Below, in pieces: positions 50,567 to 59,029 of a stretch of DNA of 64,000 nucleotides. The position numbers and the translations under genes were made by a program. Origin of the DNA: Nitrospira sp. (GTDB taxonomy: Bacteria; Nitrospirota; Nitrospiria; Nitrospirales; Nitrospiraceae). Position 1 is the first letter of the stretch. Each line of letters begins with the position of its first letter. The stretch is taken from NCBI GenBank assembly GCA_030692565.1, contig JAUYAO010000029.1:1-64000 (forward strand), in the 5' to 3' direction. The notes below the pieces were generated by a model that ran no database searches, was not told the origin of the DNA, and saw only the letters and a list, made by a program, of their open reading frames with translations.

Positions 50567-51916
50567 ATGACCACGAACACTGCACAACCACGCGCCTCGC
50601 TGCATACGCTGGGCTGTCGGCTCAACCAGGCGGAAACAGCCGTACTTGGCGAACGATTGCGGCAGGACGGCTATCGCCTGGTCGCGTTCGGTGAGCCAAC
50701 CGATCTTCTCGTCCTCAATACCTGCTCTGTCACGGAAGACGCTGAACGGACTTCCCGCTATCTCATTCGCAAGACGCTCAAGCATTCCCCCAAGGCTTTC
50801 ATCGCGGTCACAGGCTGCTACGCGCAGACGGGACCGGAAGGGTTGAAGAAGCAGTCCGGCATCGACCTGATCGTCGGCAATCAATATAAGCTCGATCTCC
50901 CGACCTTTCTTCCGCCAAGCCATCGGCTGCAGAAGCACGCGGCGCCGGTCGTGCATCGCACCAAGACCATCGCCCCGGAAGACTTTGAACTTCCCGAGTA
51001 TGGCGCACCGGATTCCACCCGTGCGCCGCTCAAGATTCAAGACGGCTGCAATACCATGTGCAGTTTCTGCCTGATCCCCTTTGCACGAGGCCGGGAACGA
51101 AGCCGCCTGCTCGACGATTTGTTGCGCGAGGCCGAACTCCTGGCCGACCAGGGTGTTCGGGAAATCGTGTTGACCGGCGTGAACATAGGACAATACCACC
51201 AGGCCGGTGCGGATCTCTGTACCGTGATCCCTCGGCTGGAGACTATCCCCGGTCTGGAGCGCATCCGGATTTCTTCCATCGAGCCGACCACGGTCACCGA
51301 TCAGTTGCTGGAACTGATGGCCTCGTCAGCCAAACTCTGTCCCTATCTCCACATCCCTCTCCAAAGCGGAGATGACAAGATCTTGGCCGCGATGAACCGC
51401 TCGTACTCGGCGCAGGATTATGTGCAGCTGATTACGCGCGCCTTACGCAAGATTCCCAACTTAGGACTCGGCACCGATATCATGGTGGGTTTCCCCGGTG
51501 AGGACGAGACAGCGTTTACCAATACGCTGAAGCTGGCCACCGAACTTCCCTTCGCCTATTTCCACGTATTTCCATTTTCGCCAAGACCGGGGACCGCGGC
51601 GGTGAAGCTGGCCAATCCTGTCAACGCCGCGCAGATGAAAAAACGGACCGCGATTTTAATGGGTCTCTCGCAAGCCAAGCGCCTCGCCGTCCATGATAGG
51701 CATATTGGAACGACGATCCCCGTCTTGTTCGAAGCCGGTTACCATGACGGTTTCGCGGTTGGCACGACATCCACGTTCCTGAAAGTTGCGGTCCCTTCGC
51801 CTTCTGAACTTACGAACCAGATGCATTCCGTCACCATCACTGCCGCCAGCGAGCGTTGGGCGATCGGCCACCTGGCAGCTCAGCCGACCGCCACGACAAT
51901 GTTGCCGATGCTATGA
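50567..51916 (+). CDS. mtaB: tRNA threonylcarbamoyladenosine methylthiotransferase
   Basis: 449 residues. Radical SAM methylthiotransferase converting t6A37 to ms2t6A37. N-terminal MTTase domain LHTLGCRLNQAET with LNTCSVTEDAE and VTGCYAQTGPE (second cluster cysteines); radical SAM motif DGCNTMCSFC (CxxxCxxC); SFCLIPFARGRERSR; C-terminal TRAM-like region. The R-L-N-Q-A-E context is the MtaB rather than MiaB type. miaB overlaps its stop, so two related tRNA position-37 modifiers are made from one message. Confidence 0.93.
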   Translation: MTTNTAQPRASLHTLGCRLNQAETAVLGERLRQDGYRLVAFGEPTDLLVLNTCSVTEDAERTSRYLIRKTLKHSPKAFIAVTGCYAQTGPEGLKKQSGIDLIVGNQYKLDLPTFLPPSHRLQKHAAPVVHRTKTIAPEDFELPEYGAPDSTRAPLKIQDGCNTMCSFCLIPFARGRERSRLLDDLLREAELLADQGVREIVLTGVNIGQYHQAGADLCTVIPRLETIPGLERIRISSIEPTTVTDQLLELMASSAKLCPYLHIPLQSGDDKILAAMNRSYSAQDYVQLITRALRKIPNLGLGTDIMVGFPGEDETAFTNTLKLATELPFAYFHVFPFSPRPGTAAVKLANPVNAAQMKKRTAILMGLSQAKRLAVHDRHIGTTIPVLFEAGYHDGFAVGTTSTFLKVAVPSPSELTNQMHSVTITAASERWAIGHLAAQPTATTMLPML

Positions 51917-53247
51917 CGAACAAGACCACACCGCATCTTGTCCATATTGAAACGTTCGGCTGTCAGATGAATGAATCTGACAGTGAGCTCGTCCGCTCAT
52001 TACTCAAACAGGACGGGTTCGCCTTCACCGAAGACCGTGAGCGGGCCGATGTGATGCTGATAAATACCTGTGCCATCCGGGAAAACGCGCACAATAAGGT
52101 CTACGGCCACCTCGGAGAATTGCAGGCGGTCAAGAAAGAACGCCCGCTCGTTGTTGGCGTGTTGGGTTGCATGGCGCAAAGCCTCAAAGATGAGTTGACG
52201 AAAAAAGTGCCGCTGATCGACGTACTCGCCGGTCCCGACGCTTATCGCCAGCTCCCCATGTTGATTACGAATGCGTTGCAGACGCAGGAACAGGGTTTTG
52301 CGAAGAAAGCTTTTGCTCTGGACCTCTCCGAGTATGAAACCTATGAAGGTGTGCTGCCGGATCGCGAAGGCGGGGTCAATGCCTGGATCACCGTCATGCG
52401 CGGCTGCGACAATTTCTGCAGTTTTTGCGTCGTCCCGTACACCCGCGGACGTGAGCGTTCACGCAATCCCCAGAGCGTCCTGGCCGAAGCGCAGCAAGCC
52501 GCGTCCCTCGGATACAAACAAATTACGCTGCTCGGGCAGAATGTGAACTCCTATCGTTCCGGCGATTGGGACTTTGCCAAACTCATCTCAGCCGTAGCCG
52601 ACACCGCCGGGATCGAACGGGTCCGCTTTACCTCGCCGCACCCCAAGGACTACCCGCGTTCGCTGCTCGACGCCATCGCTTCACACCCAAAGATCTGCAA
52701 GCACATTCATCTGCCGCTCCAATCCGGAAGCGATCGCATTCTCGACCTGATGGGACGCGAGTACACCGCCGCCGAATACTCCGGGCTGGTTAACCAGATC
52801 AAGGGAATGATACCGGACATCGTCCTGACCACCGACATCATCTGTGGGTTTAGTACAGAAACCGAGCAAGACTTCGAGAGCACATGTCGTCTCGTCGAGC
52901 AAACCCGGTTCCATTCAGCCTTCGTCTTTGCCTACTCCGAACGGAAGAACACCATCGCCGCCAGAAAATTTCAGGACGACATACCGGAAGCGGTGAAGGG
53001 CGACCGCGTGAAGCGGCTTGTGGAGCTTCAGCGCGAGATCGGCGGGGCAAGAAATCGTGAATATGTTGGCCAAACTCTCTCAGTGCTCGTCGAACGGGAA
53101 GCCACCCGTTCGCCGGACCGCTGGATGGGCAAAACCGACGGAAACATCGCGGTCATCTGGGATAAAGCCCGTGAACCGCTGCAGCCTGGCAGATTAACGC
53201 ATCGTCGGATCACCGACTCATCGGTGGCCGCGCTGTTCGCCGAGTAA
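51913..53247 (+). CDS. miaB: tRNA-2-methylthio-N6-isopentenyladenosine synthase
   Basis: 444 residues. ATG 51913 overlaps the mtaB stop as ATGA. ETFGCQMNESDSE, INTCAIRENAHNK and VGVLGCMAQ hold the three cysteines of the auxiliary cluster; MRGCDNFCSFCVVPYTRGRERSR holds the radical SAM cluster; the TRAM domain ends the protein (LSVLVEREATRSPDRWMGKT). Adds the methylthio group to i6A37. The partner miaA is not in the window. Confidence 0.95.
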   Translation: MTNKTTPHLVHIETFGCQMNESDSELVRSLLKQDGFAFTEDRERADVMLINTCAIRENAHNKVYGHLGELQAVKKERPLVVGVLGCMAQSLKDELTKKVPLIDVLAGPDAYRQLPMLITNALQTQEQGFAKKAFALDLSEYETYEGVLPDREGGVNAWITVMRGCDNFCSFCVVPYTRGRERSRNPQSVLAEAQQAASLGYKQITLLGQNVNSYRSGDWDFAKLISAVADTAGIERVRFTSPHPKDYPRSLLDAIASHPKICKHIHLPLQSGSDRILDLMGREYTAAEYSGLVNQIKGMIPDIVLTTDIICGFSTETEQDFESTCRLVEQTRFHSAFVFAYSERKNTIAARKFQDDIPEAVKGDRVKRLVELQREIGGARNREYVGQTLSVLVEREATRSPDRWMGKTDGNIAVIWDKAREPLQPGRLTHRRITDSSVAALFAE

Positions 53248-53477
53248 CCTCGTGGGAAGCACCCTACTCGTAATCACGGTTGCCGAAATATTCACCATTT
53301 TCTTTGTCAGTAAACCCTAGTCAGCTCAGGAACATTCTTGCACGCCTACTCCAGACACTGAACATTTTCTGACACGCTTCCGTCAAGAAACACCCATTTA
53401 ATCCAGAAGCTTCCTTTAGCGTTCGCCTCTCTTCCCCTTCATTTTAATATCCAAAGACTCCGCCCATCCACCCACAA

Positions 53478-53554
53478 CATCTCTCTATAATCATCTACGT
53501 AACCAGCTGATTTATCTAACTGGTTGACTCATTACATCATCTCTCTATCTGGTT
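53478..53554. promoter_or_regulatory. Repeats resembling an upstream activating sequence for a sigma-54 activator
   Basis: An exact 11-base direct repeat CATCTCTCTAT occurs at 53478-53488 and 53538-53548. Between them lies the inverted repeat AACCAG (53501-53506) / CTGGTT (53520-53525), and another CTGGTT is at 53549-53554. The block sits about 85-165 bases upstream of the sigma-54 promoter at 53641, the usual place for enhancer-binding-protein sites. A TATAAT at 53486 overlaps the first repeat. The rest of 53248-53640 has no gene. Confidence 0.45.
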
Positions 53555-53640
53555 ATTTAATACGAAGAGAAGACTCCCATCGCCCCAAGAGACATCCTTT
53601 TCTTACTCAATCCTTTGATACTTTTCTCCTTACTTCTCAA

Positions 53641-53656
53641 TGGCATGTCACTTGCT
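53641..53656 (+). promoter_or_regulatory. Sigma-54 (RpoN) promoter
   Basis: TGGCATGTCACTTGCT matches the consensus TGGCACG-N4-TTGCW at every fixed position but one (T for C). GG and GC are ten bases apart, as required. It would start transcription about 12 bases on, near 53668, and serve the 27-residue peptide gene and the lipoprotein gene. An RpoN-dependent activator is required; none is encoded in the window. Confidence 0.75.
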
Positions 53657-53727
53657 TACCAAAAGGAACGAAAGCGACCAAAAAGAGTCAACCAAAACAT
53701 TCATCATTAAACCAAGCGGACTGGCGC

Positions 53728-53811
53728 ATGACACTCGAGACAATTATTTCACTGGGCGTTTTTGGATGGATGGCTGTTGGCATGGTCCTCATGGGCCTCG
53801 GCATCTGGTAA
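53728..53811 (+). CDS. Tiny membrane peptide (27 aa)
   Basis: ATG 53728 to TAA 53811 encodes MTLETIISLGVFGWM followed by AVGMVLMGLGIW: one short hydrophobic helix with a single acidic residue near the N-terminus and a terminal tryptophan. It is about 60 bases downstream of the predicted sigma-54 start and upstream of a lipoprotein gene. The SD is weak. Its position and the clean hydrophobic helix argue for a real peptide, perhaps a small membrane regulator; no known family is recognised. Confidence 0.45.
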   Translation: MTLETIISLGVFGWMAVGMVLMGLGIW

Positions 53812-53891
53812 TCCCCCAAACGCCAGTTACGCATCTAGACAGTACCCTTACACAGGCCGATATTTTTCTATCCACAGGAGAAGGAGCAGCC

Positions 53892-54875
53892 ATGCATTCA
53901 ATTCGCAACAATCAGACTCGATACAGGACAACAGGATGGCTTCTGGCAGCCGTGCTCTTTAGCGGCTGTTCCATGGTCTCAGGATCCCAGTCCATGCATC
54001 AGAGCGCCAAAGGCTCCGTCTACCTCGAGGAAGTGACTGAATGGTCTTTCGAGGCCAATCACCCGACGATCATTGATCAGAATACGATGCTGAAAATTGT
54101 GAAAGGTGTCATGACCGAGGAGGCCGCCTCGGCCTCCAGCAGAATGCCCGCGAGTGGCAGTAAGCCGATGAGAGTATTCAGCGATGGAGATGCCGAGTTT
54201 CTCGCTCCCCTGCTAGCCCAAGGATTGTCGCGAGCGAAACCGGAGCAGATTGTCGGTTTCCGTGTATCTTCATCGGCAGGGTCAGGCGCTGCACCCACCG
54301 CGGGCACCCTTTACGTGCAACATGGAGCGGCTTATTTCACCATCTCCTCCCCCAAGGGAATGAAAGCCGCCGGGTTCATGCCGAAATCGGCTGCCCACAT
54401 CGAGTCGGCCCCCTCGTTTGCGGCCAACGGTGCCGCCGGGGCCATGTCGATGGTGATCGACTATACCGCGCTGGCCAGAGCGTCTATGCCCGCTGCCATG
54501 CCCGTAGCGGCGATGGCAACTCCGGCACCCGTCGCACAGCCTGCATTGTCGGCTCCTGTGAAAGTCGCCGCCAGACAAGAGTCTTCAGCACCGGTCCAAG
54601 CTGTCGCGATCAGCGGCATGTCCGCATCCGCGGACAAACCAACGAGCGACCTGACGACTGAAGACATCCTCAATAAGAAGCTGGACGAACTGCGCCAAGC
54701 GAGAGAAGCCAACGCCCTCAAGGAATCGGAAATCAAAATCCTTCGCAAGGAAACAGAGTGGATGAAGAAGGAGCTGAAGGAACGCACCGCCGAACGCGAT
54801 GCGATGAAAGCCAAGAATGTCTCATCGAAGCCGGCACCCAAGAAGAAGCCCGCCGAACTTCAGCCGACTCGATAG
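53892..54875 (+). CDS. Lipoprotein with Ala/Pro-rich middle and C-terminal coiled coil
   Basis: 327 residues from ATG 53892 behind AAGGAG; the open frame upstream is not used. Lipobox LFSGC (Cys about residue 27). Residues 40-190 look like a folded beta-rich domain (KGSVYLEEVTEWSFEAN, FRVSSSAGSGAAPTAGTLYVQHGAAYFTISS). An Ala/Pro/Met-rich linker of about 80 residues is followed by a strongly charged coiled coil (DILNKKLDELRQAREANALKE, KILRKETEWMKKELKERTAER) and a KKKPAELQPTR end. It probably sits under the sigma-54 promoter. No family recognised; an envelope role is inferred. Confidence 0.75.
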   Translation: MHSIRNNQTRYRTTGWLLAAVLFSGCSMVSGSQSMHQSAKGSVYLEEVTEWSFEANHPTIIDQNTMLKIVKGVMTEEAASASSRMPASGSKPMRVFSDGDAEFLAPLLAQGLSRAKPEQIVGFRVSSSAGSGAAPTAGTLYVQHGAAYFTISSPKGMKAAGFMPKSAAHIESAPSFAANGAAGAMSMVIDYTALARASMPAAMPVAAMATPAPVAQPALSAPVKVAARQESSAPVQAVAISGMSASADKPTSDLTTEDILNKKLDELRQAREANALKESEIKILRKETEWMKKELKERTAERDAMKAKNVSSKPAPKKKPAELQPTR

Positions 54876-54888
54876 GGCGAAACCATAG

Positions 54889-55605
54889 CTACAAAAGCTC
54901 CAGCAACTCCGGCTGGAGCAAGACAACGTCACTGGACAGGGGCTGCCGGAAATTCATTCGGCAAAAACAGGCATACGTAACATACGTATCTTGTAGGCAA
55001 TACCGAGCCAGCTCCTGTCCCTGGCCCTTCTCCCACATCTCTGCCACCTGCGATCCGCTCCCCGACTTGGTTTCCACATTGAGCGCGCGTGCCAGCACAT
55101 CCAGCTTGACCCACCCCCGCGTATCCCAATTGCTCCAGATCGCCATCGTGTCATAAACCGGTTCGGCTCGAAACTTCGCCAGATTGATGTCGTAACTCGG
55201 TTTGACCTGGTGGATAATCGATCGTTTTCTAATAAACGGGAGATCGAATCCCAGGCCGTTATGCGTAATGAACAAGGTGGGCCGGTCTTGCGCAATCCTG
55301 GCCCAGAACTGACGGAGTAGTTCCTTCTCATTGCTCCCATACCAGGCCACCGCGCTACGGGCTTCCATCTGATCGGAGAATTCGAGCAGGCCGATGCAGA
55401 CAATCTTGCTGAACGTCCCATCGAACGCCGATTTGGCGTACTGCTCATCTTCAGCATGGCGCGCTTCCTCAGCGGCACCGGCTTCAAAGAGGTCCAGTCC
55501 TCCGGGCCTGGCCAAAGCGTCCTCCGGCGGGTGCTCTTTTCCGACAAGGTGTGCCCATTCCGCACGCGGCGCTTGAACCGTCTCAATATCCAATACGACT
55601 TTCAT
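54889..55605 (-). CDS. PolB-like 3'-5' exonuclease (DnaQ superfamily)
   Basis: 238 residues; ATG 55605 overlaps the mutT stop as ATGA. DEDD exonuclease motifs: ExoI VLDIETV, ExoII FITHNGLGFDLPFI, and a C-terminal YCLQDTYVTYACF containing the third-site aspartate with tyrosine four residues on. KLDVLARALNVETKSGSGSQVAEMW is characteristic of the predicted exonucleases related to the PolB proofreading domain. Likely trims DNA ends; its place after mutY and mutT suggests base-damage repair. Confidence 0.88.
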   Translation of the reverse strand: MKVVLDIETVQAPRAEWAHLVGKEHPPEDALARPGGLDLFEAGAAEEARHAEDEQYAKSAFDGTFSKIVCIGLLEFSDQMEARSAVAWYGSNEKELLRQFWARIAQDRPTLFITHNGLGFDLPFIRKRSIIHQVKPSYDINLAKFRAEPVYDTMAIWSNWDTRGWVKLDVLARALNVETKSGSGSQVAEMWEKGQGQELARYCLQDTYVTYACFCRMNFRQPLSSDVVLLQPELLELL

Positions 55606-58558: not shown

Positions 58559-58762
58559 ATGGATCTCTCCCAGCTTACGCCCCAACAGTTAAAAGAACTC
58601 GTCCAGGGCCTCGTCGACGATCGCCTACGCGAACTCATCGGCGATCCGGACCTCGGGTTGGCATTGGGAGACGCCCTGCAGGCGCGCTTGAAAGAGTCCC
58701 TCACCAGCAGCGAACGGCTCTCGGGCGATGACGTGGCCGACCGACTCGGGCTGCGCTGGTAA
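58559..58762 (+). CDS. Antitoxin of a type II toxin-antitoxin pair
   Basis: 67 residues: MDLSQLTPQQLKELVQGLVDD, then RLRELIGDPDLGLALGDALQ and ARLKESLTSSERLSGDDVADRLGLRW. Acidic and helical throughout, with no clear DNA-binding fold at the N-terminus. It may bind the palindrome at 58509 as a dimer or only through the complex. The downstream RelE-like gene six bases on identifies it by context. Confidence 0.72.
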   Translation: MDLSQLTPQQLKELVQGLVDDRLRELIGDPDLGLALGDALQARLKESLTSSERLSGDDVADRLGLRW

Positions 58763-58768
58763 CCGACC

Positions 58769-59029
58769 ATGGCCTGGTTTCGCCTCGCCTTCCGACCGAC
58801 CGTCATCCAGGACCTGACGCAGGTTGATCCCGCCATGGCCCAACGGCTCTTCGACAAAACCAAATGGATCGCGTCAAACGTGGACAACCTGCGCCATGAA
58901 CCGGTCGCGCCGAATCTGCCGGGCCTGTCGAAATACGCTGTCGGGGATTGGCGGATTTTTTACACGATCGATCGCGCCGACTCGCTCGTAGACATCCACG
59001 CCATTGCGCCGCGCGCCCGGCTTCGGTAG
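58769..59029 (+). CDS. RelE/ParE-superfamily toxin
   Basis: 86 residues. RLAFRPTVIQDLTQVDPAMAQRLFDKTKWI is the two-helix start, NLRHEPVAPNLPGLSKYAVGDWRIFYTIDRAD the central sheet, and LVDIHAIAPRARLR the last strand. GDWRIFYTID is the classic RelE-family core strand, and the basic C-terminus could contact the ribosome or RNA. Whether it is an mRNA interferase or a gyrase poison (ParE) cannot be told by eye. Confidence 0.82.
   Translation: MAWFRLAFRPTVIQDLTQVDPAMAQRLFDKTKWIASNVDNLRHEPVAPNLPGLSKYAVGDWRIFYTIDRADSLVDIHAIAPRARLR

Follow-up and report, generated by a model that had tools for sequence, protein, structure and literature searches.

Transcription from the -24/-12 promoters of sigma-54 (RpoN) works with enhancer-binding proteins (EBPs) and with IHF. 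Another group of well-described components is formed by CydX, KdpF, AcrZ and MgtS, which are small, single-helix proteins accessory to membrane complexes. A locus in the genus Nitrospira brings together features of both. Its resemblance to sigma-54/EBP/IHF systems lies in the GG and GC contacts, their spacing, a candidate enhancer far upstream and an IHF-like site midway; it differs in the sequence of the candidate enhancer and in being a unit known from sequence alone. The peptide encoded there is similar to CydX, KdpF, AcrZ and MgtS in size (~27-49 residues) and in having one hydrophobic helix, however it has no adjoining partner gene, sits behind a sigma-54 promoter and is restricted to Nitrospiraceae, and the likeness seen is not one of sequence. 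An envelope theme has been described among sigma-54 targets (Francke et al., 2011; PMC3162934). With its envelope-type targets, including a lipoprotein, the locus fits that theme and is in kind ordinary sigma-54 biology. The literature searched contains almost nothing about sigma-54 control in Nitrospira. It offered no directly relevant work on RpoN or on small proteins of these bacteria, and it does not describe this peptide family or its strict promoter conservation in Nitrospiraceae.

The reading favored here, which we regard as probable, is that of a sigma-54-dependent, EBP-activated unit distributed across Nitrospiraceae that would produce a single-pass membrane microprotein, usually accompanied by an envelope lipoprotein. 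The window, which is the whole 64,000-nucleotide stretch of DNA that was analysed, comes from contig C29; the genome (G000) measures 4.17 Mb. The window contains the following features of the unit and its surroundings:

51856..53247, + strand: miaB, a syntenic anchor outside the unit and the upstream neighbour in all 50 loci examined.
53641..53656, + strand: predicted sigma-54 (-24/-12) promoter TGGCATGTCACTTGCT, with a predicted start at ~53667; its GG/GC contacts and GGCA...TTGCT are invariant in 50/50 orthologous loci.
53728..53811, + strand: predicted single-helix membrane peptide of 27 aa, MTLETIISLGVFGWMAVGMVLMGLGIW, whose counterpart in most of the genus has 45 aa; found in 30/30 genus loci.
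53892..54875, + strand: predicted envelope lipoprotein of 327 aa, conserved downstream in 46/50 loci.
54897..54919, - strand: hairpin resembling an intrinsic terminator, between the lipoprotein gene and a convergent exonuclease gene; weak, as 1 was found against 1.7 expected by chance.

Promoter and synteny were followed through 50 miaB-peptide loci from 13 genera, comprising 30 loci of the genus and 20 further ones, 19 of which belong to 12 other genera. The order miaB, peptide, lipoprotein is kept in 30/30 genus loci, and N. moscoviensis has the identical layout. Beyond the lipoprotein, genus loci continue with the convergent exonuclease gene, mutT and mutY wherever the contig extends that far.

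The original prediction placed an RpoN-consensus site with one mismatch at 53641, and the sequence is found there in the form GGCATG-N4-TTGCT, one mismatch away from TGGCACG-N4-TTGCW. Taken alone, this site is weak evidence because such matches occur near chance level within the window (allowing up to 2 mismatches gives 10 sites, compared with 10.3 expected from shuffles). Across the genome the exact pattern GGCAYG-N4-TTGCW occurs at 13 sites versus 5 for a reversed control. The case for the promoter thus rests on conservation across genomes: GGCA-N6-TTGCT is invariant in 50/50 intergenic regions of the family, compared with a mean of 2.55/50 and a maximum of 8 in dinucleotide shuffles. The six closest genomes keep an invariant block, CTCAATGGCATG..A.TTGCT, amid diverged flanks. 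Each of the 30 genus loci has one such site in its intergenic region of ~480 bp, and the promoter is the most conserved block of that region, with an information content of 18.4 against a mean of 7.7 (sd 2.3).

A sequence resembling a -24/-12 element could be conserved for some other reason, for instance as a target of a different sigma factor or as an RNA or protein-binding element, and the chance-level evidence from the window would be compatible with this. Yet the invariant positions of the 50-locus alignment are the GG and GC contacts of sigma-54 at the correct spacing, with variable bases between them, and the family has retained both rpoN, found in 164/175 genomes and in 113/114 of those of good quality, and many EBPs. 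Such a different origin of the conservation is very improbable. G000 itself encodes RpoN (contig C52) and ~20 AAA+ EBPs. The conserved contacts make the assignment of a sigma-54-type promoter to 53641 a well-supported prediction. The original prediction staked itself in part on the promoter and the peptide frame being conserved among relatives, and both are conserved family-wide.

The 27-residue peptide proposed at 53728-53811 is likewise borne out as a conserved open reading frame. Its hydrophobic stretch is seen directly in the sequence. Among the 30 genus loci its identity is 67-100% over 27 residues, whereas that of the lipoprotein is often only ~50%, and pooled pN/pS is 0.18 for the peptide versus 0.42 for the lipoprotein. 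Six residues (E4, I7, G13, W14, M22 and W27) are invariant over 41 distinct peptide sequences. Most of the genus encodes a 45-aa form, MK...ITLETIISVGVVGWLAIGMVLMGLGIW, of which the clade of the window retains the internal ATG only. In-frame stop codons occur shortly upstream in L004, L006 and L007 and, in L219, immediately in front of the ATG, confirming the 27-aa form and supporting the ATG start. When 235 genomes of the order were searched with a profile, the peptide was recovered from ~155 of the 175 that belong to the family, mostly as one copy each; outside the family the search yielded only matches with E > 0.005, so that the peptide is essentially absent there. The profile search gave no paralogue within G000, and no plasmid-borne copy was found. 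That the peptide is a real, conserved short protein under purifying selection is well supported by these comparisons.

Peptide conservation also follows a helical period, with one face of the helix conserved (P 0.01-0.04 in two of three residue windows, 0.12 for residues 7-27), a signal that is weak because it depends on the residue window chosen. The conserved face, together with the glycines and tryptophans, suggests with modest support that the peptide packs against a partner helix. Size and hydrophobicity also recall the small hydrophobic type I toxins, in which case the long conserved upstream region would encode an antisense RNA. Against a toxin stand the single copy in most genomes with fixed synteny across the family, the lack of any RNA family match at the locus in Rfam, and the tightly controlled sigma-54 promoter kept in 50/50 loci; we consider it highly unlikely.

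The large lipoprotein with a coiled-coil end that had been proposed downstream is present, and in the same orientation, in 46/50 loci. It consists of a lipobox (FSGC) with Cys26, a beta-rich domain at residues 31-196, a disordered linker and a coiled coil at residues 256-310. Cys26 is invariant in 30/30 genus sequences. An AlphaFold2 model (mean pLDDT 71) contains the beta-rich domain and the coiled coil. Lipoprotein matches were found in 53/59 relatives, and the named homologues are almost all from Nitrospira or other Nitrospiraceae/Nitrospirota, including N. moscoviensis NSP M-1. Neither Pfam nor NCBIfam has a family for the protein. Foldseek returned no match to the model below E 0.6, a structural comparison reached a best Z of 5.2 for the coiled coil only, with no confident relative, and a PDB sequence search gave only weak matches, mostly to the coiled coil. 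Four paralogues in G000 have as neighbours genes for binding proteins (PstS-family or ModA-like) and for proteins of the Porin_O_P or porin-like type:

L325 2539-3324, - strand: lipoprotein-like paralogue beside PstS-family binding protein and Porin_O_P genes, without a Pfam or NCBIfam model.
L327 2777-3487, + strand: lipoprotein-like paralogue beside PstS-family binding protein and Porin_O_P genes, without a Pfam or NCBIfam model.
L328 2696-3439, - strand: lipoprotein-like paralogue beside PstS-family binding protein and Porin_O_P genes, without a Pfam or NCBIfam model.
L326 3205-3927, + strand: lipoprotein-like paralogue beside ModA, without a Pfam or NCBIfam model.

These paralogues have the conserved N-terminal domain in common with the lipoprotein and are lipoprotein-like, but they are shorter, have no sigma-54-like site nearby and are not matched by a peptide paralogue in the genome. 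Their neighbours suggest an envelope or uptake role for the lipoprotein. Another paralogue (L324 2688-3722) is located ~10 kb from rpoN.

In 46/50 loci the lipoprotein gene follows the peptide gene, co-oriented behind the promoter, an arrangement consistent with the micro-operon that had been proposed. Four loci from three other genera (L126, L132, L133 and L134) have miaB followed by the sigma-54 site and the peptide, with no lipoprotein at the locus. The next gene there is convergent; by eye it appears to encode either a urease accessory protein or a histidine kinase. Because peptide and promoter stand alone at these four loci, the primary target of sigma-54 appears to be the peptide, which would then not be a leader of the lipoprotein. 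A leader, translation-coupled or attenuator-like, would control the lipoprotein through a short reading frame whose sequence matters little, and a short frame directly 5' of the lipoprotein gene is what the 46 loci have. However, the peptide sequence is under purifying selection and is more conserved than the lipoprotein, and the four loci keep peptide and promoter ahead of a convergent gene. Of the marks of a leader peptide or attenuator, the downstream target is lacking at these four loci, and the sequence is under selection where it should be dispensable; we give this explanation little credence. The regulatory role that the original prediction had allowed for the peptide is similarly unlikely in the sense of a mere regulator of the lipoprotein, since the peptide and its promoter persist without it.

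A reduced genome of the same genus (G124, 2.0 Mb; locus L215) shows decay of both genes. In the peptide gene the stop codon is gone and GLGIW has been replaced by GLRIW; the lipoprotein has lost invariant residues, with the lipobox Cys replaced by Tyr and a W51R substitution. This joint decay, like the co-orientation in 46/50 loci, would also be expected if the lipoprotein were the main product and the peptide its dedicated membrane partner in a two-component envelope complex. That arrangement is possible but doubtful, as the peptide occurs alone with the promoter at the four loci of the three other genera; the peptide remains the preferred primary product. G124 retains the consensus promoter, the upstream blocks and rpoN, so absence of sigma-54 cannot explain its decay. 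Loss of RpoN was considered as the cause and rejected: the DNA-binding domain was not found by a search, yet a contig end carries the core-binding domain, so rpoN is present. The EBP count is ~4 in G124 versus ~20 in G000, and four reduced genomes without the peptide have few EBPs too.

EBPs were also profiled by reciprocal best hits in five other peptide-bearing genomes versus five peptide-less or decayed ones. Three of them (L227, L230 and L233) have such hits in 5/5 of the peptide-bearing genomes, and of these only L233 is missing from 4/5 of the peptide-less or decayed genomes:

L322 6160-7641 (G000 C54:172139), - strand: L233, an orphan AtoC/NtrC-like EBP that best tracks the peptide by phylogenetic profile.

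L233 is the best-tracking candidate for the activator, as a lead only; the relationship is a correlation that genome reduction confounds. Its gene adjoins a sugar-nucleotidyltransferase-like gene, and a hybrid histidine kinase is encoded a few kb away. The second-ranked EBP, L225, is also missing from G198 and adjoins PilS/PilC-like genes, which makes it PilR-like.

Sites for an activator had been proposed among repeats upstream of the promoter. The direct repeats ACAACATCTCTCTAT / ACATCATCTCTCTAT are located at 53474 and 53534 and the AACCAG/CTGGTT arms at 53501, 53519 and 53548, as described. Their role as activator sites did not hold up: the CATCTCTCTAT repeats and CTGGTT arms are confined to G000 and, in part, its 99% relative L003, from which the CTGGTT arm is already gone, and they were ruled out on this ground. 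Conservation in relatives, the check put forward for both peptide and repeats, thus favored the peptide and not the repeats. AACCAG is the only one of these elements that falls within a conserved upstream element. In the genus, conserved upstream elements are found ~280-310 bp and ~140 bp 5' of the -24 element:

53329..53343, + strand: upstream conserved element copy 1, GGAACATTCTTGCAC (genus consensus GGAACAATTCTGCAC), a candidate activator site conserved in the genus just after miaB.
53359..53373, + strand: upstream conserved element copy 2, TGAACATTTTCTGAC, a candidate activator site near-invariant in most of the genus.
53500..53512, + strand: IHF-like site TAACCAGCTGATT, matching YAANNNNYTGATW, a candidate DNA-bending site; most genus loci keep it 138-143 bp 5' of the -24 element.

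The two copies form a tandem pair, GGAACAATTCTGCAC / TGAACATTTTCTGAC, whose spacing is 29-31 bp in 29/30 genus loci; positions 2, 5, 8, 11 and 12 of copy 1 are identical in 30/30. From this we infer that the pair at 53329-53373 is a candidate enhancer in the genus. To our knowledge its sequence matches no EBP site class. A matrix scan of the genome placed no tandem pair near other sigma-54-like sites. TGAACATTTTCTGAC was rejected as a regulon-wide site, being the sole exact copy in the genome with all other matches carrying 2 mismatches, and an ECF or sigma-70 promoter in the upstream block was rejected as its spacing, judged by eye, is inconsistent across the genus. Outside the genus, the first tandem motif can be made out in some genera only, as GAACA-N4-TGNAC at L122, L130, L131, L135 and L137. 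Since the elements of the genus are at most partly recognisable elsewhere, the activator sites have either been redesigned in other genera or been misread. L120, L121 and L127 (genera g24 and g19) have a different conserved block, TTGCCCAGT..TGAACA..TTGCCAATTTTTAGAC..TCGTCAGACTGAC, in place of the tandem motif.

In a scan anchored on the promoter, the next-best intergenic block is the IHF-like site, YAAC-N4-TGATT at -142, with an information content of 13.3. This block fits the IHF consensus. The window matches WATCARNNNNTTR exactly on the reverse strand; across the genus the TGATT side is conserved and the Y position is often A.

The proposed mechanism would begin with a closed complex of RpoN-RNA polymerase at 53641, which an EBP would open via DNA looping. 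Within the genus the tandem motif is the probable binding site of the EBP, and a bend at the IHF-like site, halfway between this motif and the promoter, may aid looping through IHF. The primary product would be a single-pass membrane microprotein of 27-45 residues, presumably inserted in the inner membrane, where it would pack against a partner as a small accessory subunit. In most lineages one transcript would also yield the envelope lipoprotein. Because lipoprotein paralogues lie beside PstS-family and OprO/P-type porin genes, the unit probably tunes envelope or uptake machinery, in response to a signal that the EBP would sense. A more specific version, which is tentative, is that this microprotein defines the family and is an inducible subunit that retunes one of the core complexes of the inner membrane (respiratory, transport or export) in nitrite-oxidising and comammox bacteria, as the conserved output of a dedicated sigma-54/EBP circuit, with the lipoprotein as a lineage-specific second arm towards the outer membrane.

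Nitrospira, including the comammox species, carry out nitrite and ammonia oxidation worldwide, and the unit would represent an unrecognised, switchable envelope gene of nitrifying bacteria that are central to the nitrogen cycle. Promoter contacts that are exact to the base in every lineage examined offer a clean and testable entry to a sigma-54 circuit of Nitrospira. The microprotein is easily missed by annotation, and its loss from reduced genomes lends itself to correlation with physiology.

Two further observations concern other loci. At C26:72433 of G000 (L044 around 1515, - strand), an exact sigma-54-like site lies directly 3' of an EBP gene and precedes a 495-aa open reading frame with a signal-peptide-like start. 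Within the window, two short open reading frames adjoin each other at 58559-58762 and 58769-59029; by eye the second looks like a RelE-type toxin, and the two may form a toxin-antitoxin pair.
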